From the NCBI GenBank assembly GCA_003054655.1, contig QAYZ01000011.1:62001-126000 (forward strand): a stretch of 64,000 nucleotides of DNA, in the 5' to 3' direction. Position 1 is the stretch's first letter; every line of letters starts with the position of its first letter. The position numbers and the translations under genes are program-made. Below are positions 8,984 to 59,074 of the stretch, one piece after another. The notes beneath the pieces are model-generated. The model was given only the letters and a program-made list of their open reading frames with translations, made no database searches and had not been told where the DNA came from. Source of the stretch: Spartobacteria bacterium LR76. Its GTDB lineage: Bacteria; Verrucomicrobiota; Verrucomicrobiia; Chthoniobacterales; Terrimicrobiaceae.

Positions 8984-8991
8984 TTTGGCTG

Positions 8992-10914: not shown

Positions 10915-10961
10915 ATTTCTCCAGCAACGGGAAGTTTTCCCGGCTCAGGGACTCTCCGGGC

Positions 10962-11004
10962 AAAAAAAAGCCTGCGGATCGCGATGGCAATCCGCAGGGC
11001 TTGA
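10962..11004 (-). terminator. Rho-independent terminator of the H1-like gene
   Basis: A 9-bp perfect stem (CCTGCGGAT 10971-10979 with ATCCGCAGG 10990-10998) can extend by a few pairs with one bulge. On the minus strand it is followed by a run of eight T. It lies 22 bp after the stop of the minus-strand gene ending at 11026, the classical arrangement. It may also limit read-through from the convergent stress protein gene. Confidence 0.85.
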
Positions 11005-11025
11005 AAGCCTGGCTTTCGTATCAGG

Positions 11026-11541: not shown

Positions 11542-11809
11542 GGCGGCGTTTATACGGATATTTTTTCCGGTTGCTAGCGGTTCTTTATCCATCATCGGAC
11601 GGGACTCGTGGAAAGGATGCATTTTTTTAGCGAATTTCGAAAATGATATCCTGTATGCATCTGATCCGTCCGAACCTTGATATCAAGAGGCTCGACGGGC
11701 GAATAGGGAAAGTTTCTCCCGGTGTTAAGCGCGGGAGGGGAGGGGGTGTGAAACCTGTTACGCGGGCTGGATTGCTATCGGAGCCGGCTGATTAGCCTAA
11801 CAGGCCCCG

Positions 11810-12514: not shown

Positions 12515-12541
12515 AGGACAAATATCATTTCGTTTTGACGG

Positions 12542-13117: not shown

Positions 13118-13306
13118 CAGCCATTAGTAACAACTGCCGGAACGGCGGTGGTTAACAGGCCCGCCGGCCCGCCTGAAGCGGGGCTGCAGGCTGGAGAGAG
13201 GTCGCAAATCGCCTGCGGCCGGGCTGCCTGTTTGTCCGGGAATTGTCAAACTCGCGAAACCAAAGCTTGCGCGAGGGGCCTAAATTCTTCATTCCCATGA
13301 ACCGTT
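13118..13306. other. Intergenic region before the liv operon
   Basis: This 189-bp GC-rich stretch lies between the DUF1802 gene and livK. It holds several small inverted repeats (for example ACTGCCG GAA CGGCGGT near 13137) and a CTCGCG...CGCGAG pair close to livK. A promoter for the liv operon is expected here, but I could not define one. Confidence 0.35.
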
Positions 13307-14461: not shown

Positions 14462-14488
14462 TACATACGGGCGGAGACGACAGGAACG

Positions 14489-15364: not shown

Positions 15365-15367
15365 GAA

Positions 15368-22793: not shown

Positions 22794-22837
22794 GCGGCGA
22801 GGATGGTATGGCGGGGCAGTCAGGCCGCAAGTCTTGA

Positions 22838-23665: not shown

Positions 23666-23785
23666 GATGCAAGCATGGGAAGATTTGCTCCTTCGAAGAG
23701 CCTTGTCGGCAGAGAAGTGCTGTTGTTTAAAAGAAAACAGCAGGCCGGTCTTTGAAGACCTCCGGGATGCTTTCAAAATTCATTC

Positions 23786-24886: not shown

Positions 24887-25122
24887 CATATTCTTAGAAA
24901 AGGCGGGGCCGACTTCGGGCTGCTCGCCGGTTTTCTGCCTGCCGTCGTGTAGTGCTCGTCAATTCCGGCTAATCAGCCCTGAGCATGGTTCGGCGGAGGG
25001 GAATGTGTTTCGGAGGGATTGCTGAGTGTTATATAAAAAATAACAGGGCAATTCCATTGCCGGGGGCATTGCTTCGTAGTTCCTTTGGGGCAGCTTTCAG
25101 CCTCTTCCCCACCCTCCCGGAT
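24887..25122. other. Intergenic region before the pseudopilin gene
   Basis: These 236 bp include an AT-rich island (TTATATAAAAAATAACAGGG near 25029) inside otherwise high-GC DNA. That makes it the best candidate for a promoter or regulator site for the downstream cluster. No defined hairpin terminator for the regulator gene is seen. Confidence 0.35.
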
Positions 25123-25866
25123 ATGAAAACGTACTTTAGCTACAGGCCCGATGCATTCTGCTCCGAGCGGTCGGATGAGTTCAGAATGTCGCGAGGGAGG
25201 GATGCCTTTACGCTGCTTGAGGTGCTGGTGACGGTGTTGACGGTCGCCCTGCTGGCCACGCTGGTCATCCCGGCGTTTTCCCGGGCTCAGGCGTCGATGC
25301 AATCGGCGCGATGTCTTTCCAATCTGCGCCAGCTACAGCAGGCTAATATGGCCTATGCGGCGAGCCACGATGGCGCGTTTGTGCCGGTCTTCATCAATGG
25401 AGCATCCTCCGCGTCGGAGGGGCGCGTGTTATGGACGGGAAATGCGGATTTTCTCAGCCAGCTCGGCATCTCTCGTGCCGTCTCATCGACGAGTGACCTG
25501 ATGAAGGCATGGCCGCGCCAGATGCTCTGCCCGAGGGCCACGATAGACGGAGGCCGGATCGACCGGTGCTATGCTTATAATCGCACCGGCCTTTCGGCGT
25601 TGTACAGCAAGCCCGGCGCAAGCGCCGTGGTGCGGACGGCCGAGATCGCGCGCCCGTCCCGGGTCATCGCCTTCATCGACGCGGTGAACTGGATGATGGA
25701 TTACGATACGCCGCTGGGGGATTACAAAGGGGAGGAGACGCAAAGCAACACCGTGGCTTTGCGGCATGGAGGCCGGGCGAATGCCGTGTTCTTCGACGGG
25801 CATGCCGAGCAGCTCTCCGCGGAGCGTGTGACGGATGAGGCCGAGCTATGGCGCATCAAATATTAG
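25123..25866 (+). CDS. Type II/IV pseudopilin-like protein with C-terminal H-X9-DG-type motif
   Basis: The N-terminus carries a prepilin methylation motif, FTLLEVLVTVLTVALLATLV, starting with A-F-T-L-L-E; it would be cut by prepilin peptidase and assembled into a pseudopilus or remain an inner-membrane anchor. Near the C-terminus RHGGRANAVFFDGHAE gives the H-x(8-9)-DG processing-associated signature. ATG 25123 leaves a long leader; ATG 25186 (MSRGRDAF) would give the usual short leader and may be the true start. Proteins of this class occur in large paralogous sets in Planctomycetota and Verrucomicrobiota. It is followed by a PEP-CTERM gene after 58 bp. Confidence 0.82.
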   Translation: MKTYFSYRPDAFCSERSDEFRMSRGRDAFTLLEVLVTVLTVALLATLVIPAFSRAQASMQSARCLSNLRQLQQANMAYAASHDGAFVPVFINGASSASEGRVLWTGNADFLSQLGISRAVSSTSDLMKAWPRQMLCPRATIDGGRIDRCYAYNRTGLSALYSKPGASAVVRTAEIARPSRVIAFIDAVNWMMDYDTPLGDYKGEETQSNTVALRHGGRANAVFFDGHAEQLSAERVTDEAELWRIKY

Positions 25867-25924
25867 AATTTCAAGTCGTCGTTTCCCAAGACCGAAATCA
25901 ACAACCATCCCAACCAACCCCACC

Positions 25925-26836
25925 ATGAATATCCTCAAAAAGACCAAAGCTTCCCCGGGGCTCCTGCTTGCCGCGGGAGCCGTTGCCGCCTGTATCTCCT
26001 TGTCCTCGGCCCCCGCTGCCACGGTTTTCAGCTTCGGCCCGTCCACCGACTATGTGACGAGCGATACGAACTACTCGCGGTCGGCGACGAGGACGGGCAG
26101 CGGCCCGTGGACCTACCTGAATGCATTCAGCAGCAGCGCGGCACTGAGTCCGTCGTCCGGATACACCGGCCCGACATTCTACGGGGGCTATACGCTGACA
26201 TCGTCCTCTGTGCAGGGGTCGAGTCTCACCGGGGCGGTGCTGAACAATTGGTCGCTCATCGGCGGCAATGACGCCTTGCGTGTCTACGCATCGGTGAGCT
26301 CGGGCTGGAGCGGCAGCACGCTGGGTTTTGCCTCGGCCTATCTGTTCAAGCAGAGTGATTTTGCGGCACCCTATAATACGGGAAACTTTGCTCTCGACGG
26401 GTTGAGCGTGACGTACCGGGCCTCCGGTGCGGGAGGGGCTTTCGTTCCGACCGGTCGGTGGCTGGTCGAGGTGAATAATGTATATTACCTTTCCGAGGCG
26501 ACGATCAGCTCCGCATATAATACGACCTCCACCGTGTCGATCTCCTCCGCGACGCTAAGCGCCACCAAGTGGACGGTCTACGACCCGAGCGCGAGCCTCT
26601 TTCTGTCATCGGCGGCGACATATTCGGCCCTGGATTTGTCGCATGTGACAGCGGTGGGCGTGTATTTTGAAAAGGATGCGTATGTCGGGACATCCGACAC
26701 ATCGGCCGCGCTGCTTGCCATCTCGGCTTTTTCCGCATCGGGTGCCGTGGTTCCCGAGCCCTCGACGACCGGGCTGATCGTGCCAGGAATGCTGGTGGTC
26801 GGTTTGATGCTGAAGGGGCGTATCGGACGGCGCTAG
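25925..26836 (+). CDS. PEP-CTERM sorting domain protein
   Basis: This 303-residue secreted protein has a signal peptide (residues 1-38, ending SSAPAAT), then a Ser/Thr/Gly/Tyr-rich beta-type body with no recognisable enzyme domain. The C-terminal PEP-CTERM sorting signal is VVPEPSTTGLIVPGMLVVGL followed by a basic tail RIGRR. Such proteins are processed by exosortase and end up at the surface or in extracellular polymer. No exosortase gene is in this window. Start ATG 25925 was chosen over upstream frames because it begins the signal peptide. Confidence 0.85.
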   Translation: MNILKKTKASPGLLLAAGAVAACISLSSAPAATVFSFGPSTDYVTSDTNYSRSATRTGSGPWTYLNAFSSSAALSPSSGYTGPTFYGGYTLTSSSVQGSSLTGAVLNNWSLIGGNDALRVYASVSSGWSGSTLGFASAYLFKQSDFAAPYNTGNFALDGLSVTYRASGAGGAFVPTGRWLVEVNNVYYLSEATISSAYNTTSTVSISSATLSATKWTVYDPSASLFLSSAATYSALDLSHVTAVGVYFEKDAYVGTSDTSAALLAISAFSASGAVVPEPSTTGLIVPGMLVVGLMLKGRIGRR

Positions 26837-26855
26837 GCGCCCGCGAGGGAATCCC

Positions 26856-28304
26856 GTGTCGCAAACAATGATGCCTCCGCCGCGGATGGAGGGAATCCGC
26901 CATGAGACCGTGCCGGGGGATCGCGTATCCTGGCGCGAGAAGCTGGGGTTGGGATTTGGCAATGCCGCGGCGGGCTGCCCGGCCACGTTTCACACGCTGG
27001 TCGGGCCGATCTTCAATATGACGCTCGGGATGAACCCCGCGCTCATCAGCACGATACTCTTCATCCAGCGGATATGGGATGCGTTCAGCGATCCGGTGAT
27101 CGGGCAGTACTCGGACAACTTCCGGTCTCGCTGGGGGAGGCGGCTGCCGCTGATGGCGGGAGCGGCGCTCCCCATGTGCGGGCTGTTCCTGGCCCTCTGG
27201 TGGTTTCCCCGCCATGCGAGCGAGATGACGCTGTTCTGGTATCTGCTGGTGGTCTCCCTGGCGTTTTTCACCGCGCAGACGACGTACTCGATGTCGTTGA
27301 TCGGGCTGCGCATCGAGGCCACGGACGACTATCACGAGCGCACACGCGTGGCGATGGTGGTGATGGTCTTCGGGTTCGTCTTCCAGATACTCAGCCAGTG
27401 GCTTTTCCCGCTCACGCAGCTCGATGTGTTTGTCGACCCGGTGAATGGTCTGCGCTGGGTGATGGGCGGTGTGGCGGCGGTGTATTTCTTCATGGCAGTG
27501 ATCCCGATCGGCCTGTGCCGCGAGCGCAACTACCAGCAGGTGGCGGCGAGGCAGCCAAAAATCCGGCTGCGGGAGAGTTTTCGCCATGTCTGGACTAATC
27601 CGCCGCTGAAGCGGGTGGTGTTTGCCCGCCTGATCGAGAGCTTCGGCTATAACATCGTGGGGATGTTTGCTGTGTACATGAACACGTATTACCTTTTCGG
27701 AGGCGACCTGAAGCGGGCGGCGTGGGTTTATGGATTCATGGGATCGGCATTCATGATCTCGGCCATCTGCTGCTCGCTCTTTGTCTATCCTGCGTTGTCG
27801 CGGAGGCTGGGGAAGAAAACGACGTTTCAAATCGCGGTCGGGGTGCTGATGGCCGGGTGCGTCGCCAAGCTGGTCGTTTATCAGCCCGAGTGGCCCTGGC
27901 TTCAGCTCGTCGTGCTGGTGGCCAACGGGGCGGCGATCTCTGGAATCTCCATTATGGGAAACTCGATGCTGGCGGACATCGCGGATTACGAGGAGTGGCG
28001 CTCGGGCTGCCGCAACGAGGCGTTTCTTGCCGCCATCCTCGCGTGGTGCGACAAGGCGGGCAGTTCCATCGGCTCGCTGATCTGCGGGTTCATCCTGGTT
28101 TGGATCGGGTTTGACGCGGCGACGGGCAGACAGGGGGAGGGCACGCTGCAGATGATGAAGTTCTTCTATTTCCTCATGCCGTTTCTCGGCGCGGTGGCGG
28201 CGTTTTTTGTGATGCGTGATTACGAACTGAGCGAAGACCGGGTCTATGAGATCAAGGACGCCCTCGCTCGCCGACATCGATCCTCCCATGAGGCGCAATC
28301 CTGA
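26856..28304 (+). CDS. GPH-family (MelB-like) sugar:cation symporter
   Basis: This 482-residue major facilitator has 12 predicted helices. The glycoside-pentoside-hexuronide marks are IQRIWDAFSDPVIGQYSDN (helix 2 and loop, with the cation-site Asp residues), FRSRWGRRLPLMAGAALP and the later SMLADIADYEEWRSG. It starts at GTG 26856 with GAGGGA upstream; an ATG at 26868 is an alternative. Its place beside the glycosidase-like lipoprotein and the NanA-like aldolase points to uptake of a sugar acid or oligosaccharide. It overlaps the next gene by 17 bp. Confidence 0.9.
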   Translation: MSQTMMPPPRMEGIRHETVPGDRVSWREKLGLGFGNAAAGCPATFHTLVGPIFNMTLGMNPALISTILFIQRIWDAFSDPVIGQYSDNFRSRWGRRLPLMAGAALPMCGLFLALWWFPRHASEMTLFWYLLVVSLAFFTAQTTYSMSLIGLRIEATDDYHERTRVAMVVMVFGFVFQILSQWLFPLTQLDVFVDPVNGLRWVMGGVAAVYFFMAVIPIGLCRERNYQQVAARQPKIRLRESFRHVWTNPPLKRVVFARLIESFGYNIVGMFAVYMNTYYLFGGDLKRAAWVYGFMGSAFMISAICCSLFVYPALSRRLGKKTTFQIAVGVLMAGCVAKLVVYQPEWPWLQLVVLVANGAAISGISIMGNSMLADIADYEEWRSGCRNEAFLAAILAWCDKAGSSIGSLICGFILVWIGFDAATGRQGEGTLQMMKFFYFLMPFLGAVAAFFVMRDYELSEDRVYEIKDALARRHRSSHEAQS

Positions 28305-29949
28305 CCGGTTCATGGCAGCGGCGCGTTTCCTGGCCGTTGTCGGCCTCGCGAGTCTCTGGGCCGGCGGATGTTCCGATGGCGCGGATAAGGCATCCTCCTC
28401 CGGGAAGACGGCGAAGGAATGGCGACAGGCCGCAGTCGAGCGGCCTCGCCGGATCATCGTCAATAACGATGGCAATGAGCCGGTGATGATCATCCGGGAG
28501 CCAACCGCGGAGGCTCTGCTGGCACCGCGCGTCGGCCCGCTGGCGGGAACGCAGGTTGACAGCCTGTTTTACTGCACGTGGAGTTCTGGATTTGGCCTCT
28601 TCACGCATTTTACCAAGGTCGGCCAGGTCTTCACCAGTCGCGCCGACCGGCATGCCAATAATCAGATGGCGGCGCTGCGCGAGGCCGGGATCGACCCGCT
28701 GCGGGTGATGAACGAGTATGCCAGGGCGCATGGCATGGAGTTCTTCTGGTCGATGCGGATGAATGACAATCACGACGGATACGCCGACAAGTACGGGCCG
28801 GCGTTATTTGAAGCCAACGAGCTGAAGATGGCGCATCCCGAGTATTTGCTGGGAGCGCGCGGCCAGAAGCTCGCTTTTGGGTCGTGGTCGGCGGTCAACT
28901 ACGCGCGGCCCGAGATCCGCGATCTGGCCTTTCGCTATGTCGAGGAGGTGTGTCAGAACTATGATATAGATGGCGTAGAGCTGGATTTCTTCCGGCATCC
29001 GGTTTTCTTTCCCTCGACGACGCGGGGCGAGGTGGCGACGGCGGAGGAGTTGGAAATGATGACGGGCCTGCTCCGGCGCATACGGGCCATGGCCGACGAA
29101 GCGGGCCGCCGGTGCGGGCGGCCGATTCTCATTGCCGTGCGGGTGCCGGATTCGGTCGCGTATGCAAAGGCGGTCGGCCTGGATCTGGAAACCTGGCTGT
29201 CCGATGATCTGGCAGACCTCCTCATCGTCGGCGGCTATTTCCGGCTCAATGACTGGGAGCGCAGCGTGGAGCTGGCTCGGCGGCACGGGGTGAAGGTCTA
29301 CGCATCCCTGGACGATGCACGTGTTGCCGATCCCGATGGCCTCCGGCCTTCCCAGCGCATGACCGATGCCGCCTACCGGGGCCGGGCCGCTGTCGCGCGG
29401 GCGGCGGGCGTTGATGGGCTGTATTTCTTCAATCAATTCAACCCGAGGCGTCCCATCTGGCGGGAGGTGGGGGAGGCGGCGACACTGGATCGCCTGGACA
29501 AGGATTACTTTGCCTCAGTGCTGGGAGTGGGAAATACGCCGATGCGGAGCAATCTTCCGCTCGGGGGATATCGGACCGTGGAGACCCTGGCTCCGGATGC
29601 GCCCCGGGTCCTGACTGCTGGGCAGCCCGAGACGGCATCCATCCGGCTGGCGGAACCGGCGGATTCCCGGGAAGACCTGCGCCTCGATCTGCGCCTCCGC
29701 CTGGGCGCTCCGGAGATCACACCCGAGAGCCTGACGGTTGCGTGCAATGATGTGATATTGACCGACGCCAAAAGAGACGGTGCCTGGCTGGTCTATCGCC
29801 TGAGTGCCGGCTCGGTGCGGCAGGGTGTCAATGCCGTACGGGTGGAGCTGAAGCCCGGCGGAGTTTCCAGCGTCTCGTGGCTGGACCTGATGGTGAGCGC
29901 GAGACATGTGCGCGGCGAGGCCGGAGCGGACCTTATTCATGAAAACTAA
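28288..29949 (+). CDS. Glycoside hydrolase-like (family-10-type TIM barrel) lipoprotein
   Basis: About 553 residues. The N-terminus is a lipoprotein signal (…GLASLWAGGCSDGA), so it is anchored outside the cytoplasm. The central part looks like a TIM barrel of the GHL10/DUF187-like group: HGMEFFWSMRMND, 'YDIDGVELDFFRHPVFF', RPILIAVRVPDSV, VYASLDDARV and GVDGLYFFNQFNPRR, with acidic residues at strand ends. The last ~120 residues are beta-rich. It probably cleaves a glycan for import by the preceding transporter. ATG 28312, 7 nt after the transporter's stop, is an alternative start. Confidence 0.68.
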   Translation: MRRNPDRFMAAARFLAVVGLASLWAGGCSDGADKASSSGKTAKEWRQAAVERPRRIIVNNDGNEPVMIIREPTAEALLAPRVGPLAGTQVDSLFYCTWSSGFGLFTHFTKVGQVFTSRADRHANNQMAALREAGIDPLRVMNEYARAHGMEFFWSMRMNDNHDGYADKYGPALFEANELKMAHPEYLLGARGQKLAFGSWSAVNYARPEIRDLAFRYVEEVCQNYDIDGVELDFFRHPVFFPSTTRGEVATAEELEMMTGLLRRIRAMADEAGRRCGRPILIAVRVPDSVAYAKAVGLDLETWLSDDLADLLIVGGYFRLNDWERSVELARRHGVKVYASLDDARVADPDGLRPSQRMTDAAYRGRAAVARAAGVDGLYFFNQFNPRRPIWREVGEAATLDRLDKDYFASVLGVGNTPMRSNLPLGGYRTVETLAPDAPRVLTAGQPETASIRLAEPADSREDLRLDLRLRLGAPEITPESLTVACNDVILTDAKRDGAWLVYRLSAGSVRQGVNAVRVELKPGGVSSVSWLDLMVSARHVRGEAGADLIHEN

Positions 29950-30931
29950 CCAGATACCTGGAGTCCAGCCGAACCGCTTTCGCGGGCTGATCGCGGCTCC
30001 GTTTACGCCGTTCCATGCGGATGGCTCCCTGAACCTCGATGTGATACCCGACTATGCCTCCCTGTTGCGACGGCGGGGCGTCCAGTCGGTCTTTGTCTGC
30101 GGTACGACCGGGGAGGGAGCGTCGCTGACGACGGAGGAGCGCGAACTCGTGGCCGAGGCGTGGATGCGCAGTGCGGAGCCCGGGCTTTCAGTCATCGTGC
30201 ATGTGGGAGGCTGCGCTCTGGGCGAGGCCCGGCGGCTGGCGGGGCATGCCGCACGGATCGGGGCGGCGGCCTTTGCAGCGCTGGCTCCGTACTTTTTTAA
30301 ACCGGCATCGGCAGCCATGCTGGGGGAGTGGTGCGCCGGGGTGGCGTCCGCTGCGGCGTCGCTGCCCTTCTACTTCTACCACATTCCCTCCATGACGGGC
30401 GTGTCGCTGTCGATGCGGGAGTTCCTGGCGGCGGCGGAGGGCATTCCCAATCTGGCGGGCATCAAGTACACGCACGAGGATCTGGCGGATTATGCAGGGA
30501 GCCTTCACTACCGTGCCGGACGGTACGATCTGCTTTTCGGCCGGGATGAGCTTTTGTACGAGGGCTGGATGAACGGTGCGCGTGGCGCGGTGGGGAGCAC
30601 GTATAACTATGCCTCCCCGCTGTACCTCCAGCTCATCGCCTCGTTGGAGGAGGGTGACCTTGAGCGGGCCAGGATGCTGCAGGACAAATCCATCGAAATG
30701 ATCGCCATCTGCAACAGCGCCGGGGTGAGTCACCTCGCTGCTTCAAAGGCGTTGATGTCCTGGCTGGGGGTCGATTGTGGGCCGGTCCGGCTTCCACTCG
30801 CACCGATCGATGCGCAGCAGCTCCAGGCGCTGGAGGGCAGGCTGGAGGCGGCAGGGTATTTTGAACCCTCCTTCGGGATCGATCCTCTGTTTCAACCGGC
30901 TGGCGGCTATGCCTTTCGTTGCGGAGCCTGA
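29939..30931 (+). CDS. NanA/DapA-family aldolase (N-acetylneuraminate lyase-like)
   Basis: This 330-residue TIM-barrel class I aldolase has the 2-oxo-acid-binding loop CGTTGEGASLT, catalytic Tyr in PFYFYHIPS, and the Schiff-base Lys in AGIKYTHEDLADYAG. GIKYT-x-x-DL is the form seen in sialic acid lyases rather than dihydrodipicolinate synthases. It splits or makes a 2-keto-3-deoxy sugar acid with pyruvate. It starts at ATG 29939, overlapping the previous stop by 11 bp. With the GPH transporter and glycosidase-like protein it suggests use of sialic or related sugar acids; the rest of a Nan pathway is not seen. Confidence 0.85.
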   Translation: MKTNQIPGVQPNRFRGLIAAPFTPFHADGSLNLDVIPDYASLLRRRGVQSVFVCGTTGEGASLTTEERELVAEAWMRSAEPGLSVIVHVGGCALGEARRLAGHAARIGAAAFAALAPYFFKPASAAMLGEWCAGVASAAASLPFYFYHIPSMTGVSLSMREFLAAAEGIPNLAGIKYTHEDLADYAGSLHYRAGRYDLLFGRDELLYEGWMNGARGAVGSTYNYASPLYLQLIASLEEGDLERARMLQDKSIEMIAICNSAGVSHLAASKALMSWLGVDCGPVRLPLAPIDAQQLQALEGRLEAAGYFEPSFGIDPLFQPAGGYAFRCGA

Positions 30932-30991
30932 TGTACTTCCTGAAAAGGGGGGTGATCCCCGGGCAGCGGTTGCTTTTGCTGCGCTGCTGCC

Positions 30992-48046: not shown

Positions 48047-48298
48047 ATGAAGACGACGCTGGAGATTCCGGATGAGCTTTACCGGCAGGCGAAGATTCGG
48101 GCGGCGAGCGAGAACCGGAAGATGAAGGATCTCGTGAGCGAGGGGCTGCGGCTTGTGCTGGAGTCGACCGCGAAGAATGCCCGGGGGCGTCGCATGGCCA
48201 AGGCTCCGGTGATCATTCGCAGGGGCAATGAGATTCCTGCGCTGAGCAATGACGAAATGGCGCGCATCCTGGAGCAATCGGGCGAGCGGCTGCCGTGA
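48047..48298 (+). CDS. VapB-like antitoxin
   Basis: This 83-residue protein has an N-terminal ribbon-helix-helix-type segment MKTTLEIPDELYRQAKIRAA and a following helix MKDLVSEGLRLVLES. A C-terminal tail (ALSNDEMARILEQSGERLP) would wrap the toxin. It overlaps the PIN toxin start by 4 bp (GTGA). Confidence 0.82.
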   Translation: MKTTLEIPDELYRQAKIRAASENRKMKDLVSEGLRLVLESTAKNARGRRMAKAPVIIRRGNEIPALSNDEMARILEQSGERLP

Positions 48299-48726
48299 GG
48301 TTCCTGCCCGACGTTAACGTGCTGTTCCCGCTGATGGTGAGCCGCCATGCCCATCGGAGCGCCGCGCTGGAGTGGTTTGATGGAGCAGATGCGGGGCAGA
48401 TTGCCGTGTGCCGGCTGACCAAACTCGGTGTCCTACGGCTGCTTTGCACTCCGCAGATCATGGGCGCGGATGTGCTGACTCCCAGGGCGGCCATCGAGGC
48501 GTTTGGCGTATTGGAGGACGATGAGCGCATCGTGTTCGCGATGGAACCCGAAGGCGTCGACGGCGTCCTCAAGCGACTCGTGGCCCGATGCGCCACGACG
48601 CCCAATCTCTGGAGCGACGCCTATCTTGCGGCTTTCGCGAAGCAGGCGAGGTTGCGGCTGGTTTCGTTCGACCGGGGGTTTGCGAAATTCCCCGGCTTCG
48701 ATTTTATCCGGCTTGAGGGGCAGTAG
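48295..48726 (+). CDS. VapC-like PIN domain toxin
   Basis: This 143-residue PIN-domain ribonuclease has the first catalytic Asp in MRFLPDVNVLFPLMVS and later acids in WSDAYLAAFA and LVSFDRGFAKFPGFDF. In the second motif the usual Glu is replaced (CRLTKLGVLRLL), as in one known subgroup. It starts at GTG 48295. Its last 13 codons are repeated in damaged form at 50069-50108. Confidence 0.87.
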   Translation: MRFLPDVNVLFPLMVSRHAHRSAALEWFDGADAGQIAVCRLTKLGVLRLLCTPQIMGADVLTPRAAIEAFGVLEDDERIVFAMEPEGVDGVLKRLVARCATTPNLWSDAYLAAFAKQARLRLVSFDRGFAKFPGFDFIRLEGQ

Positions 48727-51123: not shown

Positions 51124-51150
51124 GATCTGGGGAATGCGGGTATCGTAATT

Positions 51151-52467
51151 CTAGAAAGTCGACATGGTGAGCGGGATCATGTCGGAGTCGCCGTCCGGCG
51201 TGAGAGAGATTTTCTCGACGACGTTTTCGCGGAGCTCCGCGGCGCGTTGATTGTAGGAGACGACGATCTGGTTGCGCGTATCCAGCAGTTCCGTGAGTCT
51301 GGTACGGTTGCGGGCGGAGCTGATTTTTGGGGCGACGTTTTTGCGCCAATAAGAAGCGTCGAGAGTGTTGATGTTGGCGGATTGGGTCTTTGGGTTCTTG
51401 GTGTCGAAAATGTAGGTGACGGTTTTTTGGTCGATGCCGGAATCCAGCAGATGCTGGCGGATGTCCTCTTCCACGCCGCCGAGTTTGTCGAGGGCGTCGC
51501 GATAGGCCTCGTAGCCGGGCGTCTCGCGGGTGGGTTTGAGGTCGATGGGCTGGGCAATTTTGAAATAGGTGGCTCGCGGGCCGAAGAAATATTTCTTCCC
51601 GTACCAGCTATCCCCCGAGGCATAGCGCAGTTCATAGGAGCCGGTGGGCAGTTTGCAGGTGAGAGGGTCGCCTCCGGTGAGATAGGCGATGAGTTCCGGC
51701 GAGCCGCCCTCCGCAGGGGTAAGGATGATGAAGTAGTCGAGCCCCGGATCTGTGCTGATTTCCAGCGTGGCGTATTTTTTGCCTTCCTTGTTGGAGAAAA
51801 GGATGCCGGACGCGGGGCGGGTGATCTCGGGCGCGGAGAAATGAGGGAGATTGAGCGTGATGGCCTCTGGCGGGGCGGCGAAGGCGGGGTTGGATTTGCG
51901 GGATGCGGGAGTAGCCGCAGGAGCGAGGTTGGGGGGTGGCGTTGGTTGATGCCGGTCGATGGTCGCTCGGGGCTTGGAGATATTCGCCGCGACGACAGGC
52001 AGGAATAAAGGCAGGAAAATGAGGGCGGAAATCCCGATCACAACCAGGCTAAAGCAACAGATGATGATGATGAATATCGTGTTGGAGCTGGGACCGGAGG
52101 GGGCTGGGCTGACGCTTTTGGCTGTTGTTGGGAGAATGGGCAGCGGGACAGTGGCGGCAGGCAGGCTGGGGCGATCCGATAGTGGAGGGACGGGAGGTGG
52201 GACGGGCGCAGCAGGGACCGAAGTTTCCGGGATCGGCGCGAGTGTTGTCGCGGCAGGCAGGGTGGCGTCGTAGGCCTGGCGGCGTGCGGGATCGTCGAGG
52301 GTTTCCAGGGCCGCGTTGAGGGAGCGCCACGAGCCGGGGGGCAGGGTGGCCTGCATACGGGCGTCCATGTACCGACGAGCCTGGGTGAGGTAGGCGCGGC
52401 GGATGTCCTCGCGCGAGGCGGCGCGGGAAACCTCGAGGATTTCGTAGCAGGTGCGATCGTCGGACAT
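51151..52467 (-). CDS. Membrane protein with degenerate J domain
   Basis: This 438-residue protein has a J-domain-like start (residues 5-70: CYEILEVSRAASREDIRRAY and SLNAALETLDDPARRQAYDA). The HPD motif needed to stimulate Hsp70 is replaced (ARRYMDARMQ). A Pro-rich linker, one transmembrane helix (about 128-155, NTIFIIIICCFSLVVIGISA), a second Pro-rich stretch and a ~230-residue extracytoplasmic domain follow. The topology puts the J-like domain in the cytoplasm. It lies just downstream of, and on the same strand as, the secreted protein at 52508-53431. Function unknown. Confidence 0.65.
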   Translation of the reverse strand: MSDDRTCYEILEVSRAASREDIRRAYLTQARRYMDARMQATLPPGSWRSLNAALETLDDPARRQAYDATLPAATTLAPIPETSVPAAPVPPPVPPLSDRPSLPAATVPLPILPTTAKSVSPAPSGPSSNTIFIIIICCFSLVVIGISALIFLPLFLPVVAANISKPRATIDRHQPTPPPNLAPAATPASRKSNPAFAAPPEAITLNLPHFSAPEITRPASGILFSNKEGKKYATLEISTDPGLDYFIILTPAEGGSPELIAYLTGGDPLTCKLPTGSYELRYASGDSWYGKKYFFGPRATYFKIAQPIDLKPTRETPGYEAYRDALDKLGGVEEDIRQHLLDSGIDQKTVTYIFDTKNPKTQSANINTLDASYWRKNVAPKISSARNRTRLTELLDTRNQIVVSYNQRAAELRENVVEKISLTPDGDSDMIPLTMSTF

Positions 52468-52507
52468 GGTTGCGGCGGGATTCCTTCGGAAGTGGGTGCT
52501 GGCTTGG

Positions 52508-53431
52508 TTACTTGCGCCGTTTGGTCAGGACGGCTTGGCTTTCATCGGAGGTGTCGAGCACGTAGACGGTTCCCGGGCTTTGTGCCGGCTCCCAGGAAAT
52601 CGGGGTAATGAACTGATCCATTCCGGTTGATCGGTCGCTGCGCGACGGCGTGTAATTAGGAGTGTACCCAACGGTGCGGGAAATCTCCTTGATCAGAGCG
52701 GTGATGTATTTCGAGGACGGGTTGTGGAAGATGATTTCGGCGGAATTCACCGTGCCGTTTGAGAACTTGAGGACGACGAATTTGTTGGTGGAGGCTTTCC
52801 AGCCGAGGTCGGTGAGAGGCGTGTCGGCAAATATGGGGGGAATTTCGTCGCCTTCGTAAGTGAAAGGCTCGGCGTGGGGGAAGCGCCCGACCGCATCGCG
52901 CCATGAGCTTCCCAGCGAGGTCTCCCAGAACGAAGCGGGAACGAGCGGCTCAGCGTCGGGAATGGCGGTGATCTTTTCCCGAAAGAACGGCGAGGTGATG
53001 GATTTTGCCGCGAGCGGCGACATGCCGGACTCATTGGAGAGGAGATTCTCGCTCTCGAAGACGGGCGACCAGTCTTTAGCCTTCGTGATCTTGTTGGAGA
53101 TCTCAAAGTATCTCTTATCGCTCGCTGTGAGATTGCGGAGATTCTTGGAACTCTCGTATTTCTTCAGCAGTTCGCGGGCCTCGGGGATATCGCAGTCAGC
53201 GGCGATCCGATACCAGGCGAGGGCATTGATGGCGGGGAGGTAGCCGTCCTCTGCGGCCTCCCGGATACGGGAGAAACCCTCCTTTTGCACGGAAACGTCA
53301 CCGGCGCTCACCATGGCGGCAGATTTCTTCAGCTCAATCGCGAAATTCGCGGGATTCGTTTCCGAAGAGGCGTTGCCGAGCGAGATGAGGCAGGCCAGGA
53401 CGGCGGAGACAGAGATTCGCAAGGCGGACAT
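52508..53431 (-). CDS. Secreted protein of unknown function
   Basis: About 307 residues with a signal peptide (MSALRISVSAVLACLISLGN). The region after it, 'FSRIREAAEDGYLPAINALA' and WYRIAADCDIPEARELLKKY, has the alpha-alpha hairpin pattern of Sel1/TPR-like repeats. The rest is mixed and unrecognised. It is divergent from the ubiquitin-like operon across 191 bp, so they may share regulation. Start ATG 53431 begins the signal peptide; a longer frame to 53476 is less likely. Confidence 0.6.
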   Translation of the reverse strand: MSALRISVSAVLACLISLGNASSETNPANFAIELKKSAAMVSAGDVSVQKEGFSRIREAAEDGYLPAINALAWYRIAADCDIPEARELLKKYESSKNLRNLTASDKRYFEISNKITKAKDWSPVFESENLLSNESGMSPLAAKSITSPFFREKITAIPDAEPLVPASFWETSLGSSWRDAVGRFPHAEPFTYEGDEIPPIFADTPLTDLGWKASTNKFVVLKFSNGTVNSAEIIFHNPSSKYITALIKEISRTVGYTPNYTPSRSDRSTGMDQFITPISWEPAQSPGTVYVLDTSDESQAVLTKRRK

Positions 53432-53622
53432 CGTGGCTGCAAAGAATGGGAACGGGCGATAAGGTGTCAATTCCAAAGGGGGCCGGGGAGGGACGCTTAT
53501 ACTTTTGGTTCGACTCGGGTGGGCTTTCCGCTAAACGGAGGGGCGTTTGCCTGAACGGAAATGCATAGAAGGAAATCGATTTCTCAGCATCAGCTTGTGA
53601 AGTCCGCCGGGAAGGGGCTGGC

Positions 53623-53994
53623 GTGACGAAGATCGTGATTTCCGATCAGGATCTCGCGGCGGCGGGGCCGGGAGCGGCGAGCGTGGCTGGACGGGATGCG
53701 GGGGATATTTCACCCGCGTGGAGATGGGGGCTGCTGGCCTCGGCTTTTGTGCTGCCGATCCTGTGTATTGCTTGTGCGGGAGCGCTGATTGCGGTACGCA
53801 CCAAGCCCGCCGAGATGCGGGCGGGAATGGCTCGATATTGCTGTGTGCTGCTGATCGTGAGCGGGTTGGTGACGTCGGTCTTTACCGTGGCGGGATGGGC
53901 CCTGGCGGGAAAGAGTCCTCCCTGGGAGGGAAGCCGCGGGCGCATGCATGTGATGGAACGAAATCTGAAGGGAGAGAACTTATGCCAAGTATAG
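53623..53994 (+). CDS. Small two-helix membrane protein, first gene of the Ubl operon
   Basis: This 123-residue protein has a soluble, Ala/Gly-rich N-terminus and two membrane helices (about 33-57 WGLLASAFVLPILCIACAGA and 70-93 YCCVLLIVSGLVTSVFTVAG). It starts at GTG 53623 with GAAGGGG in front. Its 3' end overlaps the ubiquitin-fold gene by 13 bp, so it belongs to the same transcript. I recognise no family; a membrane scaffold or small regulator of the conjugation system is a guess from context. Confidence 0.65.
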   Translation: MTKIVISDQDLAAAGPGAASVAGRDAGDISPAWRWGLLASAFVLPILCIACAGALIAVRTKPAEMRAGMARYCCVLLIVSGLVTSVFTVAGWALAGKSPPWEGSRGRMHVMERNLKGENLCQV

Positions 53995-54251
53995 AGGTGA
54001 CTGTGTATGACTCGACGGAGAACAAGCGCGTGCCGGTCGAGTTGCCGGACGACGCTCCGGCGAACAAGCTTATCGCCATCCTGGTGGAAAAGCTGAATTT
54101 GCCGCGCAATGGCCCGGACGGCGCGCCGCTAAGCTATAAGTTTCACCACAAGAACAGCGGCCGCCAGATCCAGGATGCGCAGACTCTGGAGGCGGCGGGG
54201 GTTGCGACGGGCGATATCCTCAGGTTGCAGCCGGAGATCACGGCGGGCTGA
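53982..54251 (+). CDS. Ubiquitin-like protein, YukD/EsaB type, with C-terminal Ala-Gly
   Basis: This 89-residue protein is a complete beta-grasp domain: strand 1 PSIEVTVYDSTENKRVPVEL, helix DDAPANKLIAILVEKLNLP, then LSYKFHHKNSGRQIQ and QTLEAAGVATGDILRLQPE. The pattern matches the YukD/EsaB/WXG100-secretion ubiquitin-like family. It ends ...EITAG, so the terminal Gly is free without any cleavage and could be adenylated directly by the E1-like enzyme encoded 22 bp downstream. GGAGAG 6 nt before the ATG gives a clear ribosome site. Role inferred: the protein tag of the pathway. Confidence 0.85.
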   Translation: MPSIEVTVYDSTENKRVPVELPDDAPANKLIAILVEKLNLPRNGPDGAPLSYKFHHKNSGRQIQDAQTLEAAGVATGDILRLQPEITAG

Positions 54252-54273
54252 TACGTAAACCACGCTTCGCAAG

Positions 54274-55506
54274 GTGATTCAAATTTCCGCAGAGGAGCTG
54301 AATGAGGACAGGTTCAGCCGTTTCCGCCTGATCGGCTGGTGGGACCAGCAGAGGCTGAGATCGGCCAATGTCGTCGTGATCGGCGCGGGCGCACTGGGCA
54401 ACGAGATCGTCAAAAATCTCGTGCTGCTGGGCGTGGAGCATCTGCTCGTGGTGGATTGCGACCGGATCGAGCATTCGAATCTCTCGCGCAGCGTGCTCTT
54501 TCGCACGGCGGACGTGGGGAAATCCAAGGCGCGCACGGCGGCGGAGGCGGCGCGGGAGTTGAGCGATGGGCAGACGACGGCGCATTACCTCGATGCCAAT
54601 GTGATGGCGGAGGTCGGGCTGGGGGTTTTTGGCTGGGCGGATGTGATCATCGCCGGCCTGGACAATCGCGAGGCGCGGCTGTGGATCAATCGCTGCGCGT
54701 GGAAGATGGACCGTCCCTGGGTGGATGGCGCGATCGAGGGGATCAACGGCGTGGCCCGCGTGTTCCTGCCGGGGCGGGCTCCCTGCTACGAGTGCACGCT
54801 GGGAGAGACGGACTGGCAGATCCTGGAGCGGCGCATGTCGTGCAATCTGCTGACCCGCGAGGAGATGCTGGGCGGCAAGGTGCCGACGACGCCCACGACG
54901 GGATCTGTCATTGCCGGGATCGAGGTGCAGGAGGCGGTGAAGCTGCTGCACGGCCTGCCGGTGCTGGCGGGGCAGGGGTTCGTCTTCGACGGGCTGCATC
55001 ACACCTCCTACGTGGTCGAGTATACGGAGAATCCTGACTGCCTCAGCCACGAGGTCTACGAGGAGGTGATGATTTTTCCCGGGCGGTCGGATGAGACGAC
55101 GCTCGCTGCGCTGCTGGACTTTGGCCGGGAACGGCTGGGCGCGGAGAGCGGCGTGGTGGTGGAGTTCAGCCGTGATGTGATCCGGGAACTACGCTGCCCC
55201 CGGTGTGGAGTGGCGGACGAGGTATTCGCCCCCGTGGGAACGATCTCGGCGGCGCAGGGACGCTGCCCGCGCTGCGAGACGATGCGCGAGGTGGTGGCGC
55301 TGCATGGATTTCACGGTGAGCCGGAGCTGGCGGAGCGGAGGCTTTCGCAACTCGGGCTCCCGGCTTTCGATGTTTTCACGGCGCGCAAGGGCGGCCGACA
55401 GGTGGCGATCCTGATCGATGGTGATCGCGCGGACGTGCTCGGTCCTCTGGCGGAGAAGCCGCCCGGCGTGTGGCCGGAGGCGAGGAGGGCGTATGCCGGA
55501 GAGTGA
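54274..55506 (+). CDS. E1-like (ThiF/MoeB fold) Ubl-activating enzyme with zinc ribbon
   Basis: This 410-residue protein starts DRFSRFRLIGWWDQQRLRSA and has the nucleotide loop GAGALG (37-42), D61/D63, the Arg-finger region N69-L-S-R72, K85 and D130 of adenylating E1s. C171-x2-C174 and C256 take the place of the usual two CxxC zinc pairs. C190, just before the TREEMLGGKVPTTPTTGS crossover region, is the best candidate for a thioester cysteine. A C-terminal extension adds a zinc ribbon, C308-x2-C311 and C331-x2-C334. It starts at GTG 54274. It should adenylate the Ubl C-terminus and pass it to the E2-like protein. Confidence 0.88.
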   Translation: MIQISAEELNEDRFSRFRLIGWWDQQRLRSANVVVIGAGALGNEIVKNLVLLGVEHLLVVDCDRIEHSNLSRSVLFRTADVGKSKARTAAEAARELSDGQTTAHYLDANVMAEVGLGVFGWADVIIAGLDNREARLWINRCAWKMDRPWVDGAIEGINGVARVFLPGRAPCYECTLGETDWQILERRMSCNLLTREEMLGGKVPTTPTTGSVIAGIEVQEAVKLLHGLPVLAGQGFVFDGLHHTSYVVEYTENPDCLSHEVYEEVMIFPGRSDETTLAALLDFGRERLGAESGVVVEFSRDVIRELRCPRCGVADEVFAPVGTISAAQGRCPRCETMREVVALHGFHGEPELAERRLSQLGLPAFDVFTARKGGRQVAILIDGDRADVLGPLAEKPPGVWPEARRAYAGE

Positions 55507-56188
55507 AGCCAGCGCACCTGCCGCGCCCTGCCGGGTCGAGATCGACGCGCAGGTGCTCACGGAAATCCGCCAGCATGCCCGTAGCGCGATGGCGGAGGAA
55601 ATCTGCGGCGTGCTCATCGGCGAGGTGGCTGAGGGCGTGACGAAGGTTTCGGCGCGCATCCCGGGCGAGGGAGCTGCGCAGGCGGGAGCGCAGGTGACGT
55701 TCACCCAGGAAGCCTGGGAGCATATCTACCGGGTGAAGGACGAGCAGTATCCCGACCTCGCGGTGGTGGGGTGGTATCACTCGCACCCGGGGTTTGGCAT
55801 TTTCTTCTCGGACTACGACGAGTTCATCCATGCGAATTTTTTCAACGCGCCGCATCAGGTCGGCTGGGTGTGCGACCCGCACTCCGGCGACGAGGGGTGC
55901 TTTGGCTGGGTGGAGGGCGAGGTACGGCTGCTCGGGCTGGTCGGCGTGACGCGGCCCGGAGGCGACTGCCGGGTGGAGGAGCAGCCTGCCCCTGTGCCGC
56001 CCAAGGCGACATGGCGATGGGTCGGCCAGGCCTGGAAGGTGCTGGAAATCCTGCTCATCGTGCTGCTGGCGTTTTTCATCGGTGTATTGGCGCGTCCTCT
56101 GGTGGATCGCTGGGACGTGCTGCCGTCGTGGTTGCGCCTGCCGCATCACGCGCCGGTACAGATCGGAGGGATTTTTGGACATGAGTGA
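55493..56188 (+). CDS. Membrane-anchored JAMM/MPN+ isopeptidase (deubiquitinase-like)
   Basis: This 231-residue protein has a JAMM metalloprotease domain with all catalytic residues: E36 in AEEICGVLIGE, H96-S-H98-P and S106/D109 in WYHSHPGFGIFFSDYDEF, with the standard 11-residue step from H98 to D109. A hydrophobic helix (VLEILLIVLLAFFIGVLARP, about 180-200) anchors it to the membrane near the C-terminus, with the catalytic domain inside. Since the Ubl already ends in Gly, the likely role is removing it from targets rather than maturing it. It overlaps the E1 gene by 14 bp and the FHA gene by 8 bp. Confidence 0.9.
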   Translation: MPESEASAPAAPCRVEIDAQVLTEIRQHARSAMAEEICGVLIGEVAEGVTKVSARIPGEGAAQAGAQVTFTQEAWEHIYRVKDEQYPDLAVVGWYHSHPGFGIFFSDYDEFIHANFFNAPHQVGWVCDPHSGDEGCFGWVEGEVRLLGLVGVTRPGGDCRVEEQPAPVPPKATWRWVGQAWKVLEILLIVLLAFFIGVLARPLVDRWDVLPSWLRLPHHAPVQIGGIFGHE

Positions 56189-57236
56189 GGAAAAGATCAG
56201 GATCACGACGGAGGATATCGCGGCGCTCGACATCGCGGAGGTCTCGGCTCCGGTGCCAGCGCAGGGAGCGAAAGCCGAGGACGGCGTCTGGGGCACGGTG
56301 GGAGAGGAAGACCAGGGCGGAGAGGCCAAGGCCAGCTTCTGGCTGAAGTCGTGGGTTTATCTCGGGCTGGCGGGCGCGGCGGGAGCACTCGTCGGCTGGA
56401 TGATTTTTGAGCCGTGGTTTGATGATTACCCCGTTCGCTCTTTAGTCGGCAACATGGTCTTCCTGCCCGGCGTGATGGCGATGATCGCGGTCGCGCTCGG
56501 GTTGGCGGATAGCCTGGTCGAGCGATCATGGACGAAGGTGGCGATGGCTGCGTGCCTGTCGTTTCCGCTCGGTGCGGTCTTTGGTTTTGTCTTTGGGTTC
56601 GTGTCCAATATTACATTCTATCTGGAAAAGCAGATTCTATTGGAGGCGGGTGTCGTGGTGGCGAAGGACAGCCCGGCGTTGTGGATAGCGAGGGCGCTGG
56701 TGTGGATGATATTTGGTATCGGAGGCGGCGTGTGCTTCGGTCTGGCGGGAAGGTCCGGAAGGAAATGCCTGTACGGTGTGGCTGGAGGAGTCGTGGGAGC
56801 GTTCATCGGGGGCATCCTGTTTGATCCGATCTCGATCGTGGCGCATGGCGCAGAGGCGAGCCGCGCTCTCGGGATGGTTTGCTTCGGGCTGGCCTCCGGG
56901 ATTGCGATCGGCTTCGTGGAGAGCGCCCTGAAAGACCGCTGGCTGTATGTGGTGGCGGGGCCGCTGGCGGGCAAGCAGTTCGTCATCTACAAGGAGGTGA
57001 CCCAGGTCGGGCGGCGGCAGACGAATGACATCTATCTCTTCAAGGACGAGACGATCGAACCGCTGCATGCGCGAATCGAGCGGCGCGGCGCGGCCAGCAT
57101 GCTGGTGGCCCAAGGACCCGTCTATGTCGGAGGCCAGCCGGTAACGCAACGCGCCCTGCGGACAGGGGATCTGATCAAGATCGGGCGCTACACTTTCCGG
57201 TACGAAGAAAAACCCGTGAAGAAGAAAAATGGTTGA
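56181..57236 (+). CDS. Multi-pass membrane protein with C-terminal FHA domain
   Basis: This 351-residue protein has an acidic N-terminus (1-50), then about six Gly/Ala-rich membrane segments between residues 54 and 258 (for example WVYLGLAGAAGALVGWMIF and IARALVWMIFGIGGGVCFGL). A cytoplasmic FHA domain (about 262-345) shows VTQVGRRQTNDIYLFKDETI, with the Gly-Arg and His-Ala (LHARIERRG) positions that bind phosphothreonine. It may recruit phosphorylated partners to the membrane site of conjugation. It overlaps the JAMM and the RING genes by 8 bp each. Confidence 0.85.
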   Translation: MSEEKIRITTEDIAALDIAEVSAPVPAQGAKAEDGVWGTVGEEDQGGEAKASFWLKSWVYLGLAGAAGALVGWMIFEPWFDDYPVRSLVGNMVFLPGVMAMIAVALGLADSLVERSWTKVAMAACLSFPLGAVFGFVFGFVSNITFYLEKQILLEAGVVVAKDSPALWIARALVWMIFGIGGGVCFGLAGRSGRKCLYGVAGGVVGAFIGGILFDPISIVAHGAEASRALGMVCFGLASGIAIGFVESALKDRWLYVVAGPLAGKQFVIYKEVTQVGRRQTNDIYLFKDETIEPLHARIERRGAASMLVAQGPVYVGGQPVTQRALRTGDLIKIGRYTFRYEEKPVKKKNG

Positions 57237-58011
57237 GAAATGTCCCTATTGCCGCGAGGCGGTCGAAGAAGACGATCGGATGATCTGCCCCTCATGCAAG
57301 ACGCCGCATCATCCCGACTGCTGGCATGAGAACGAAGGCTGTACGATCTTTGGCTGCGAAAATACGCCCGTGGAGGAGCCCAAGGTCGCGGTGACCGAGC
57401 TGGATGTCACTCCAATGGCCGCCAACTCGCCGACGGCGAAGTATTTCCTGGCCCGTGGCGGGGAGAAGTCTGGGCCATTCAGTTTCGAAGAGGTGCTTGA
57501 ACGGCATCGCCGCGGATTTAGCGCGGACTCCGATCTGTGCTGGAGAGAAGGGACGCGTGAGTGGGTGCCGTTGTCGCGAGTGCTGGCTGCGCCCATCGAT
57601 TCGGAACCGGCGAAAGTTCCCGAGGTATTGGAGGAGGAGGCGGACCCGATGGCCGGGGTGCCGCGTTTTGGACGGCGGGTGTACTTTTCGTGGCTGTTCG
57701 GAATGCTCATTGTTTCCAAGCTCTTCATGATCAGCGAGTCGACGGTTCTCGTGGGTGCGCTGGCGGTGCTGGTGGGGTGGTCGATCATTGCCTACAAGCG
57801 CCTCCGCGATCTTGGATATGCGGGCTGGTACCTGGTACTATTCTTTGTGCCGATCGTTAATATCCTGATCGGTTTTCATCTGCTCTTTTCGCCGCGGGGC
57901 TACGCGATTACGAAAAAACGGGACTGGGTGCAGATCACGGGGATCATCCTGTGCCTTGGATTTTTCCTCCTGATTGTCCTGGGGATTGCCCTGCCAAATC
58001 TGTCCCGATGA
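57229..58011 (+). CDS. Prokaryotic RING + GYF_2 + DUF805-like membrane protein (E3-like)
   Basis: This 260-residue protein begins with a treble-clef RING-type zinc domain: C5-x2-C8, C20-x2-C23, H27/H28, C31, C38 and C43 (MICPSCKTPHHPDCWHENEG). This matches the prokaryotic RING family 1 pattern. Residues 64-115 are a GYF_2 domain (YFLARGGEKSGPFSFEEVLE, WREGTREWVPLSRVL), which binds Pro-rich peptides. Residues 135-260 carry four membrane helices of DUF805 type with YKRLRDLGYAGWYLVLFFVP. In context it is the best candidate for an E3 ligase-like adaptor. It overlaps both neighbours (8 and 4 bp). Confidence 0.85.
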   Translation: MVEKCPYCREAVEEDDRMICPSCKTPHHPDCWHENEGCTIFGCENTPVEEPKVAVTELDVTPMAANSPTAKYFLARGGEKSGPFSFEEVLERHRRGFSADSDLCWREGTREWVPLSRVLAAPIDSEPAKVPEVLEEEADPMAGVPRFGRRVYFSWLFGMLIVSKLFMISESTVLVGALAVLVGWSIIAYKRLRDLGYAGWYLVLFFVPIVNILIGFHLLFSPRGYAITKKRDWVQITGIILCLGFFLLIVLGIALPNLSR

Positions 58012-59018
58012 GCAGTCCGCGCATACGACGGTTGATGCTGGATCAGCAGCATCTGAACAGACGGTTCTCCGGGTGGACTCCGATCGAGGTCGTGCCGGTC
58101 TCCGGCGACCCGGCGGAGCTTTACCGGGTGACGTATCGGGTGAAGGGACTCTACACCGAGCCCGGCGGGCGCATCGTGGAGCGCCGCGAGCATGTGATGG
58201 AGGTGAGTCTGTCGCTGGGGTATCCGCGCCGTGCGCCGCAGTGCAAGATGCTTACGCCGGTGTTTCATCCGAACTTTGACGAGGCGAGCGTGTGCATCGG
58301 CGACTTCTGGGCGGCATCGGAGGGGCTCGATGACCTGATCGTTCGCATCGGGCGGATGATCGCCTACCAGGAGTATAATACCCGCAGCCCGCTCAATGGG
58401 CTCGCCGCGAAGTGGGCCGAGCAAAACATGGCCCGCCTGCCGGTCGATGATGTCGAGATTGCTCCTCCGGTCGAGAATCTCGAGGCCGTGGCGGAGGAAA
58501 AGATCGTCGTGCAGGTGGATGAACCTGCTGCTGCCATCGAGACGGTAAGGCGGGATGTATTGCCTGTTGCTCCCCCGGCATCAATGCCAAGTCCGCCCCG
58601 ACCTCCGTCGCCCGCGTTTTCTCCTGTTCCAACGCCTGAGAGTTCCTTTGCCCCGCCCTCGGTGGTTTCCATGGGAATGGGATTGGTGCGGGTCGGCGGG
58701 GTGCCCGGCAACCCGGCGGCGGTCGCGCCGATCGGAGGTACGCTCCGGCTGAATTTCGGCCCGCTCGCGATCGGGCTGCCTGATGGGCGTCCGCTCAAAA
58801 TCGGGAGCCGCCCCGGCAACGACATCGTGATCGCAGACCCGAGCCTGTCTGCGGTACATGCCGATGTCACACGGCGGGGAGATCGGGTAACCGTGAAGGA
58901 TCTCGGGTCGGCCCGGGGTACGCGGCTCAATGGCCTGCCCGTCCTGCAATCTCTCGTGGAGACCGGAGACAAGATCGTCTTTGGCGAGATCCAGGCTGTG
59001 CTTGAGGACGGCGAATAG
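58008..59018 (+). CDS. E2-like ubiquitin-conjugating (UBC fold) protein fused to FHA domain
   Basis: This 336-residue protein has a UBC-like domain at residues 1-150: N-terminal helix IRRLMLDQQHLNRRF, strands, the Pro-rich GYPRRAPQCKMLTPVFHPNF with H87-P88-N89, and the active-site-type cysteine C96 (SVCIGDFWA), seven residues after Asn89 (eight in most eukaryotic E2s). A Pro/Ala-rich linker (165-240) leads to a C-terminal FHA domain (about 250-335) with GSRPGNDIVIADPSLSAVHA and DLGSARGTRLNG. It should accept the Ubl from the E1 as a thioester, while the FHA domain may direct it to phosphorylated targets. ATGA overlap with the RING gene; last gene of the operon. Confidence 0.88.
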   Translation: MSSPRIRRLMLDQQHLNRRFSGWTPIEVVPVSGDPAELYRVTYRVKGLYTEPGGRIVERREHVMEVSLSLGYPRRAPQCKMLTPVFHPNFDEASVCIGDFWAASEGLDDLIVRIGRMIAYQEYNTRSPLNGLAAKWAEQNMARLPVDDVEIAPPVENLEAVAEEKIVVQVDEPAAAIETVRRDVLPVAPPASMPSPPRPPSPAFSPVPTPESSFAPPSVVSMGMGLVRVGGVPGNPAAVAPIGGTLRLNFGPLAIGLPDGRPLKIGSRPGNDIVIADPSLSAVHADVTRRGDRVTVKDLGSARGTRLNGLPVLQSLVETGDKIVFGEIQAVLEDGE

Positions 59019-59074
59019 TCTGATCCCGCCGCGTCTGGTTTTTCAGCGGACGCGGCACGATTTTCGAAGCCTCC

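Follow-up and report, generated by a model that had tools for sequence, protein, structure and literature searches.

Gene content and layout of the operon

The stretch of DNA analysed here (the window) comprises 64,000 nucleotides of contig QAYZ01000011.1 of Spartobacteria bacterium LR76 and carries, at 53623-59018 on the + strand, an operon of the ubiquitin-like conjugation type. In agreement with the original prediction made from the sequence alone, open reading frame (ORF) calls and Pfam searches confirm six consecutive genes for a ubiquitin-like protein (Ubl), an E1, a JAMM peptidase, an FHA-domain protein, a RING-type protein and an E2, and the claimed junctions are borne out as well (a 22-bp gap between Ubl and E1, followed by overlaps of 14, 8, 8 and 4 bp). 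The block is opened by a seventh ORF (gene 1), which overlaps the Ubl ORF by 13 bp and which the six-gene title of that prediction omitted, even though it lies inside the interval.

Gene 1 (53623-53994; 123 aa) was classified by alignment with a gene of a relative as a trypsin-like (TRYP) type devoid of its protease domain. It is followed by the YukD-like Ubl (53982-54251; 89 aa; Pfam YukD, 1.7e-15), the E1 with a GTG start (54274-55506; ThiF, 1.3e-48), the JAMM peptidase (55493-56188; JAB, 1.2e-13 and Prok-JAB, 1.5e-12), an FHA protein with transmembrane (TM) segments, termed FHA-TM (56181-57236; FHA, 5.3e-07), the RING-type protein (57229-58011; Prok-RING_1, 9.9e-10 and GYF_2, 5.1e-10) and an E2 with a proline-rich linker and a C-terminal FHA domain (58008-59018; UQ_con, 1.5e-07 and FHA, 7.3e-14), all on the + strand. 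These profile matches all exceed the curated Pfam cut-offs, and matches naming every component are far above chance.

Linked Ubl, E1, E2, JAB and RING genes constitute the component set of the bacterial operons that passages in PMC4197634 and PMC5654768 credit to Burroughs et al. 2011. Since Pfam also holds a Prok-RING_1 family, the operon belongs to an already known type, as the original prediction had stated with reference to comparative genomics. The same papers describe such operons as sporadic and often missing from close relatives. The Burroughs 2011 type reportedly further resembles the present operon in its Prok-RING_1 RING, YukD-like Ubl, E1 UFD and sporadic distribution in Acidobacteria and Planctomycetes, while the FHA domain on the E2 and the truncated TRYP gene are features of the window operon itself.

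Conservation of residues, folds and gene order

An E1-alignment scan of 84,980 genomes (one per species) yielded 153 relatives, the best 80 of which were kept. These belong to Acidobacteriota, Planctomycetota, Verrucomicrobiota, Lentisphaerota, Kiritimatiellota, Armatimonadota and Riflebacteria, along with single metagenome-assembled genomes (MAGs) labelled Bacillota, Bacteroidota and Aminicenantes, and the catalytic residues are invariant across seven or more phyla. The order TRYP-Ubl-E1-JAMM-FHA-RING-E2 is kept in relatives. Among 36 well-covered loci (at least 2.5 kb upstream and at least 7 kb downstream of E1), Ubl, JAMM and FHA-TM are present in every case (the E1, being the query, is found in 36/36 by construction), RING in 34, E2 in 31 and a TRYP-type gene in 25. 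In two Armatimonadota loci (L109 and L128) the operon is longer and includes two E2 genes, two or three JAMM genes and at least three RING genes, which suggests a branched cascade.

The Ubl is encoded by the sole YukD match in the genome (profile search) and ends in RLQPEITAG. Its PEITAG end, inclusive of the C-terminal Gly on which the original prediction had relied, is kept in nearly all loci of the relatives; in about half of them, the protein extends past it by a few to ~40 variable residues. As the gene overruns the Gly in many relatives, this residue is the likely mature end and not always the encoded one, and some of the tails may represent translation overlap with the E1 start. According to its abstract, the 2011 paper by Burroughs, Iyer and Aravind (Mol. 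BioSyst. 7:2261) reportedly proposed that YukD-like Ubls are conjugated.

The AlphaFold (AF2) model of the E1 (pLDDT 90.5) matches MoeB/ThiF over residues 9-260 (Z 29, structure comparison) and UBA3, SAE2 and Uba1 over residues 9-384. The E1 is therefore assigned an adenylation domain and a C-terminal UFD, the latter by alignment of the whole model over 9-384. The UFD, which is the E2-recruiting part of eukaryotic E1s, carries a zinc-ribbon-like insertion. The zinc site C171/C174/C256/H259 is invariant in relatives, as is C190 (81/81); because C171, C174 and C256 are zinc ligands, Cys190 is the only core Cys candidate for catalysis that is not a ligand.

In the JAMM peptidase, the predicted E36, H96, H98 and D109 are each invariant (81/81) together with S106 (81/81), and the E and HxH-x7-S-x2-D signature of JAMM/MPN+ is complete. 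The RING-type protein is a member of the Prok-RING_1 family (PF14446; 38.7 bits vs a cut-off of 29.1), and its full set of zinc ligands (C5, C8, C20, C23, H28, C31, C38 and C43) is present as claimed and conserved in relatives. The window operon fuses GYF_2 to this RING protein, whereas Acidobacteriota operons (L056-L091) harbour at least one stand-alone GYF_2 membrane protein between RING and E2.

For the E2, a model built on an alignment of 40 relatives (AF2 pLDDT 90.9) has eukaryotic E2s as its top PDB matches throughout (Rad6, UbcH10 and Ube2N; Foldseek E 1.5e-07), and aligns with many E2 chains over 127-135 residues (Z 12-13; root-mean-square deviation ~3), which assigns it the UBC fold of the E2 superfamily. 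The HPN motif (residues 87-89) is conserved in 48/48 and C96 in 47/47 of the relatives, in line with the predicted active site; the spacing is HPN-x6-C, whereas E2s usually have HPN-x7-C. The E2 profile and fold, Cys96 and the Ubl Gly, which the original prediction had named as able to refute it, were all checked, and none spoke against it. An FHA domain on the E2 was found in 2/50 E2 ORFs, which form a small branch around the window. Thus, of the traits that the original prediction had taken to be distinctive, the second FHA is peculiar to this branch, while a RING protein is already known in such operons.

Membrane segments, the truncated first gene and a shared motif

Hydropathy analysis (Kyte-Doolittle) assigns two TM segments to gene 1, a single C-terminal one to the JAMM peptidase (residues 186-204), six to FHA-TM and four to the RING protein, and none to the Ubl, E1 or E2 of the window. 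In the relatives, TM segments are present in 69/80 JAMM, 71/74 FHA-TM and 76/80 RING proteins. Given the even number of segments in FHA-TM (whose FHA domain is C-terminal) and in the RING protein, and given that both kinds of domain function on the cytoplasmic side, both ends of these two proteins would be cytoplasmic.

Gene 1 encodes an N-terminal motif (KIVISDQDL) followed by the two TM segments, and its product has no Pfam match of its own. It aligns with the N-terminal part of the L051 gene at 8586-9680, with which it shares the N-terminus and the TM hairpin; in L051 the hairpin leads into a Trypsin_2 domain (7.7e-18), whereas the window gene ends after it (123 aa vs 350-400 aa in most of the relatives from Acidobacteriota and Verrucomicrobiota). 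Many relatives harbour a membrane TRYP gene upstream of Ubl, and GxSGG[PA] is kept in 32/43 TRYP-type proteins. Judged by this alignment, gene 1 is a member of the operon and a truncated form of the membrane trypsin-like protein.

Side-by-side comparison of N-termini revealed a shared motif, [KPR][IL]x[IV][ST]xx[DE][LVI], near the start of otherwise unrelated operon proteins, namely FHA-TM and TRYP proteins, a large number of E1s, and accessory membrane proteins encoded between JAMM and FHA-TM (in L052, L083, L085, L088 and L114), with two or three repeats in some proteins. The window holds copies in gene 1, in the E1 (IQISAEEL) and in FHA-TM (KIRITTEDI). The motif lies within the first 60 residues of 48/65 FHA-TM proteins, as against a mean of 0.6 and a maximum of 4 in 500 shuffles; as these proteins are homologous, they are not 65 independent events, and the weight of the observation rests on recurrence in unrelated proteins. 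Because these FHA-TM and TRYP sequences had themselves served to define the pattern, with about four versions of differing strictness tried, the independent checks are those on flanks, host DNA and accessory genes. The strict motif occurs in 1/607 flanking ORFs (the lone carrier being an operon gene of L088) and near the start of 0/309 ORFs from 400 kb of the host genome. In the FHA-TM logo ([K/P/R][I/L][R/K]I[T/S]x[D/E]D L), the IxI strand is the most constant part, not the T.

A role of the motif Lys as conjugation site was rejected, as P, R or T takes its place in many copies. By sequence, the motif looks like a SUMO-interacting motif (SIM): like the eukaryotic SIMs, it has a short IxI core of hydrophobic residues, with acidic residues after it, in a flexible tail. 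It differs from them in its position at the extreme N-terminus of bacterial membrane proteins.

Patchy occurrence and proposed function

Comparison with the two available congeners (blastn against G042 and G067) places the operon and two divergent genes in a 7.95-kb block (51126-59073) that is missing from the orthologous site of both, where the flanks are contiguous. Similarity stops at 51125 and restarts at 59074 (right side ~92% identical), with 117 bp between the flanks in G042 and several hundred bp in G067. The E1 is absent from both of these genomes, the only others of the genus, as well as from a genus mate of another carrier, and the E2 was found in 4/388 genomes of Verrucomicrobiota. 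The block is accessory; since the site is empty in both congeners, it was either gained in the lineage of the window or lost in both. The original prediction had deduced a settled chromosomal system from the GC content, which does match (0.632, as against 0.610 for the window), but the empty site and the rarity of the E2 in the phylum contradict that deduction. In the E1 tree, the window stands beside a Spartobacteria MAG within a mixed Verrucomicrobiota-Acidobacteriota clade; the tree also pairs L052 (Verrucomicrobiota) with L053 (Acidobacteriota), which suggests exchange, with the proviso that bins may contain foreign contigs. A phage or mobile-element origin was rejected, as E1 and E2 searches of viral contigs yielded no relatives; a plasmid search yielded one distant ThiF protein only.

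The two divergent genes of the block encode a DnaJ-domain protein with one hydrophobic segment (51151-52467, - strand; DnaJ, 1.3e-08) and a protein with no Pfam match (52508-53476, - strand). Both were rejected as parts of the system, as relatives occur at 0/80 other loci, and they are probably passengers. Elsewhere in the window, a small antitoxin-like ORF and the PIN-domain protein after it (48047-48726; PF01850, 6.5e-09) are likely a VapBC-type pair, with similar DNA in G067 and no G042 match reported before 48802; a further ~8 kb (22834-30987) is without similarity in the orthologous region of the congeners. As for neighbours in other genomes, the closest relative (L046) has a divergent cluster at 8317-16002 with an FHA-like protein that matches Double-GTPase 2 weakly (4.9e-05, under the cut-off) and, after it, two large proteins; the cluster may be a separate GTPase-based system. 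Six Phycisphaerae loci (L086, L092, L098, L102, L119 and L123) have in common an upstream protein of ~700 residues on the - strand; AAA_31/CbiA and Wzz matches, taken over the flanks as a whole, suggest a possible Wzc-like polysaccharide kinase.

We consider it likely that the operon encodes a Ubl conjugation and deconjugation cascade built at the inner membrane, on its cytoplasmic side, from a complete and seemingly active kit. The E1 would activate the Ubl at its C-terminal Gly, as adenylate and then as thioester on Cys190, and hand it to Cys96 of the E2, which would dock on the C-terminal UFD of the E1. Ligation to substrates would be helped by the RING protein as putative E3, anchored by its four TM segments. 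The JAMM peptidase, likewise membrane-bound through a single TM helix, would strip the Ubl from conjugates and probably also matures it in relatives with a tail after the Gly; by analogy, such trimming fits the Caldiarchaeum subterraneum cascade of Ub, E1, E2 and RING, the reconstitution of which, as recounted in PMC5654768, included maturation and deconjugation by its Rpn11/JAMM. The FHA domains of the six-TM protein and of the E2 may recruit the machinery to phosphothreonine-marked membrane partners, and the N-terminal motif may bind the Ubl non-covalently, as SUMO-interacting motifs bind SUMO. In that capacity the motif would be a transferable Ubl-binding tag (a SIM counterpart) on FHA-TM, trypsin-like and accessory proteins and the E1, marking partners or substrates, a tentative proposal that we hold to be possible at most. 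Proteasomal targeting was rejected, as the genome (96% complete; ClpP, FtsH and Lon not checked) has no PF00227 match. With no proteasome-family gene found, a role in membrane-protein regulation or in stress or defence would be favoured over proteasomal breakdown.

Several points weigh against such a cascade. In the well-covered loci, E2 went undetected in five and RING in two, so that they may be dispensable for a cascade in some loci, or the genes may lie outside the retrieved stretch. The Ubl terminates in a single Gly (AG) instead of GlyGly. YukD of Bacillus subtilis is reportedly unconjugated (as cited in PMC1779556), which would suit a type VII secretion accessory in which the YukD-like protein is an unconjugated part of the secretion machine. 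The Pfam YukD match and a lone WXG100 match at another place in the genome agree with such a role; nevertheless, it is highly improbable, as the sole YukD match is the operon gene and lies on another contig (C14) than the WXG100 gene (C11), no EssC/EccC occurs among the operon proteins (Pfam), the Ubl invariably adjoins E1 and JAMM, and its invariant PEITAG end is unlike a structural subunit. The lost protease domain of gene 1 may also mean a partly degraded copy, and its length relative to the relatives, along with the congeners that lack the block, could mark a system on its way out. Such decay is improbable, given that gene 1 still forms an intact ORF, that the other ORFs are intact too and retain their overlapping junctions and every key residue, and that planctomycetal and other loci without a separate TRYP gene in that position keep the rest.

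The motif could have another purpose, for example targeting or FHA docking. If it were a phosphothreonine docking site for the FHA domains of the operon, the latter would mainly be a phospho-signalling scaffold with the Ubl as output. Its [ST]xx[DE] part fits the pTxxD preference of FHA domains (T/S at position 5 in 50/56 FHA-TM and 26/29 TRYP motifs, with D/E three residues later), and FHA domains occur in all well-covered loci. Docking is nonetheless unlikely: the T is often replaced by S, D or G, which FHA domains as a rule reject, the IxI strand is the more constant element, and the operon has no kinase gene. Slightly better placed, yet still doubtful, is anti-phage defence in the manner of Bil/Bub, whereby infection would lead the cascade to tag either a structural protein of the phage or a target in the cell. 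The component classes (Ubl, E1, E2 and JAMM) are those of Bil/Bub, the distribution is patchy with an empty site in congeners, one relative (L047) adjoins a type I restriction subunit (judged by eye), and pAgo, HamC and DruK models are matched by single genes in the flanks. Set against this, the Ubl, FHA, RING and E2 proteins have no PADLOC match, and E1 and JAMM match by general domains only (ThiF, for example BilD 1.7e-11 over 114 residues), with no BilA, BilB or BilC model matched in a 2023 library that may lack Bub. A defence-island reading from the flanks is weak, with few defence models among 106 flanking proteins and no background rate for comparison; the Phycisphaerae loci have common non-defence neighbours, and Bil/Bub systems are not known to have counterparts of the motif or of the multi-TM FHA and RING proteins.

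Among known systems, the operon of C. subterraneum has Ub, E1, E2, a small RING and Rpn11/JAMM in one region, and its JAMM matures pro-ubiquitin in a cascade shown in vitro. It differs in being archaeal, with a eukaryote-like ubiquitin that ends in GlyGly and soluble components, and the account in PMC5654768 notes no FHA-TM or TRYP there. Bil (BilABCD), Bub and the 6d-type operons of Iyer 2006 are likewise compact Ubl, E1, E2 and JAMM operons, as outlined in PMC1779556 and PMC11354881, and unlike the window operon they are without RING or FHA-TM; in the outline of PMC11354881, two Ubl domains make up part of BilA and the E2 active site of BilB is of a different kind, while the present E2 has a canonical HPN. 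What is added to the known operon type is the N-terminal motif, the truncation of the protease and the site that is empty in congeners, for which an incomplete literature search found no earlier report.

Bacterial cascades that are complete and include a RING protein are relevant to the origin of the eukaryotic ubiquitin system. The family is widely distributed among Acidobacteriota and Planctomycetota, so that its carriers include culturable hosts such as Edaphobacter aggregans (L065) and Lacipirellula limnantheis (L107). The shared N-terminal motif offers a direct and cheap binding test as well as a predictor of partner proteins; if it does bind the Ubl, bacteria would possess a non-covalent Ubl ‘reader’ code beside the covalent cascade.

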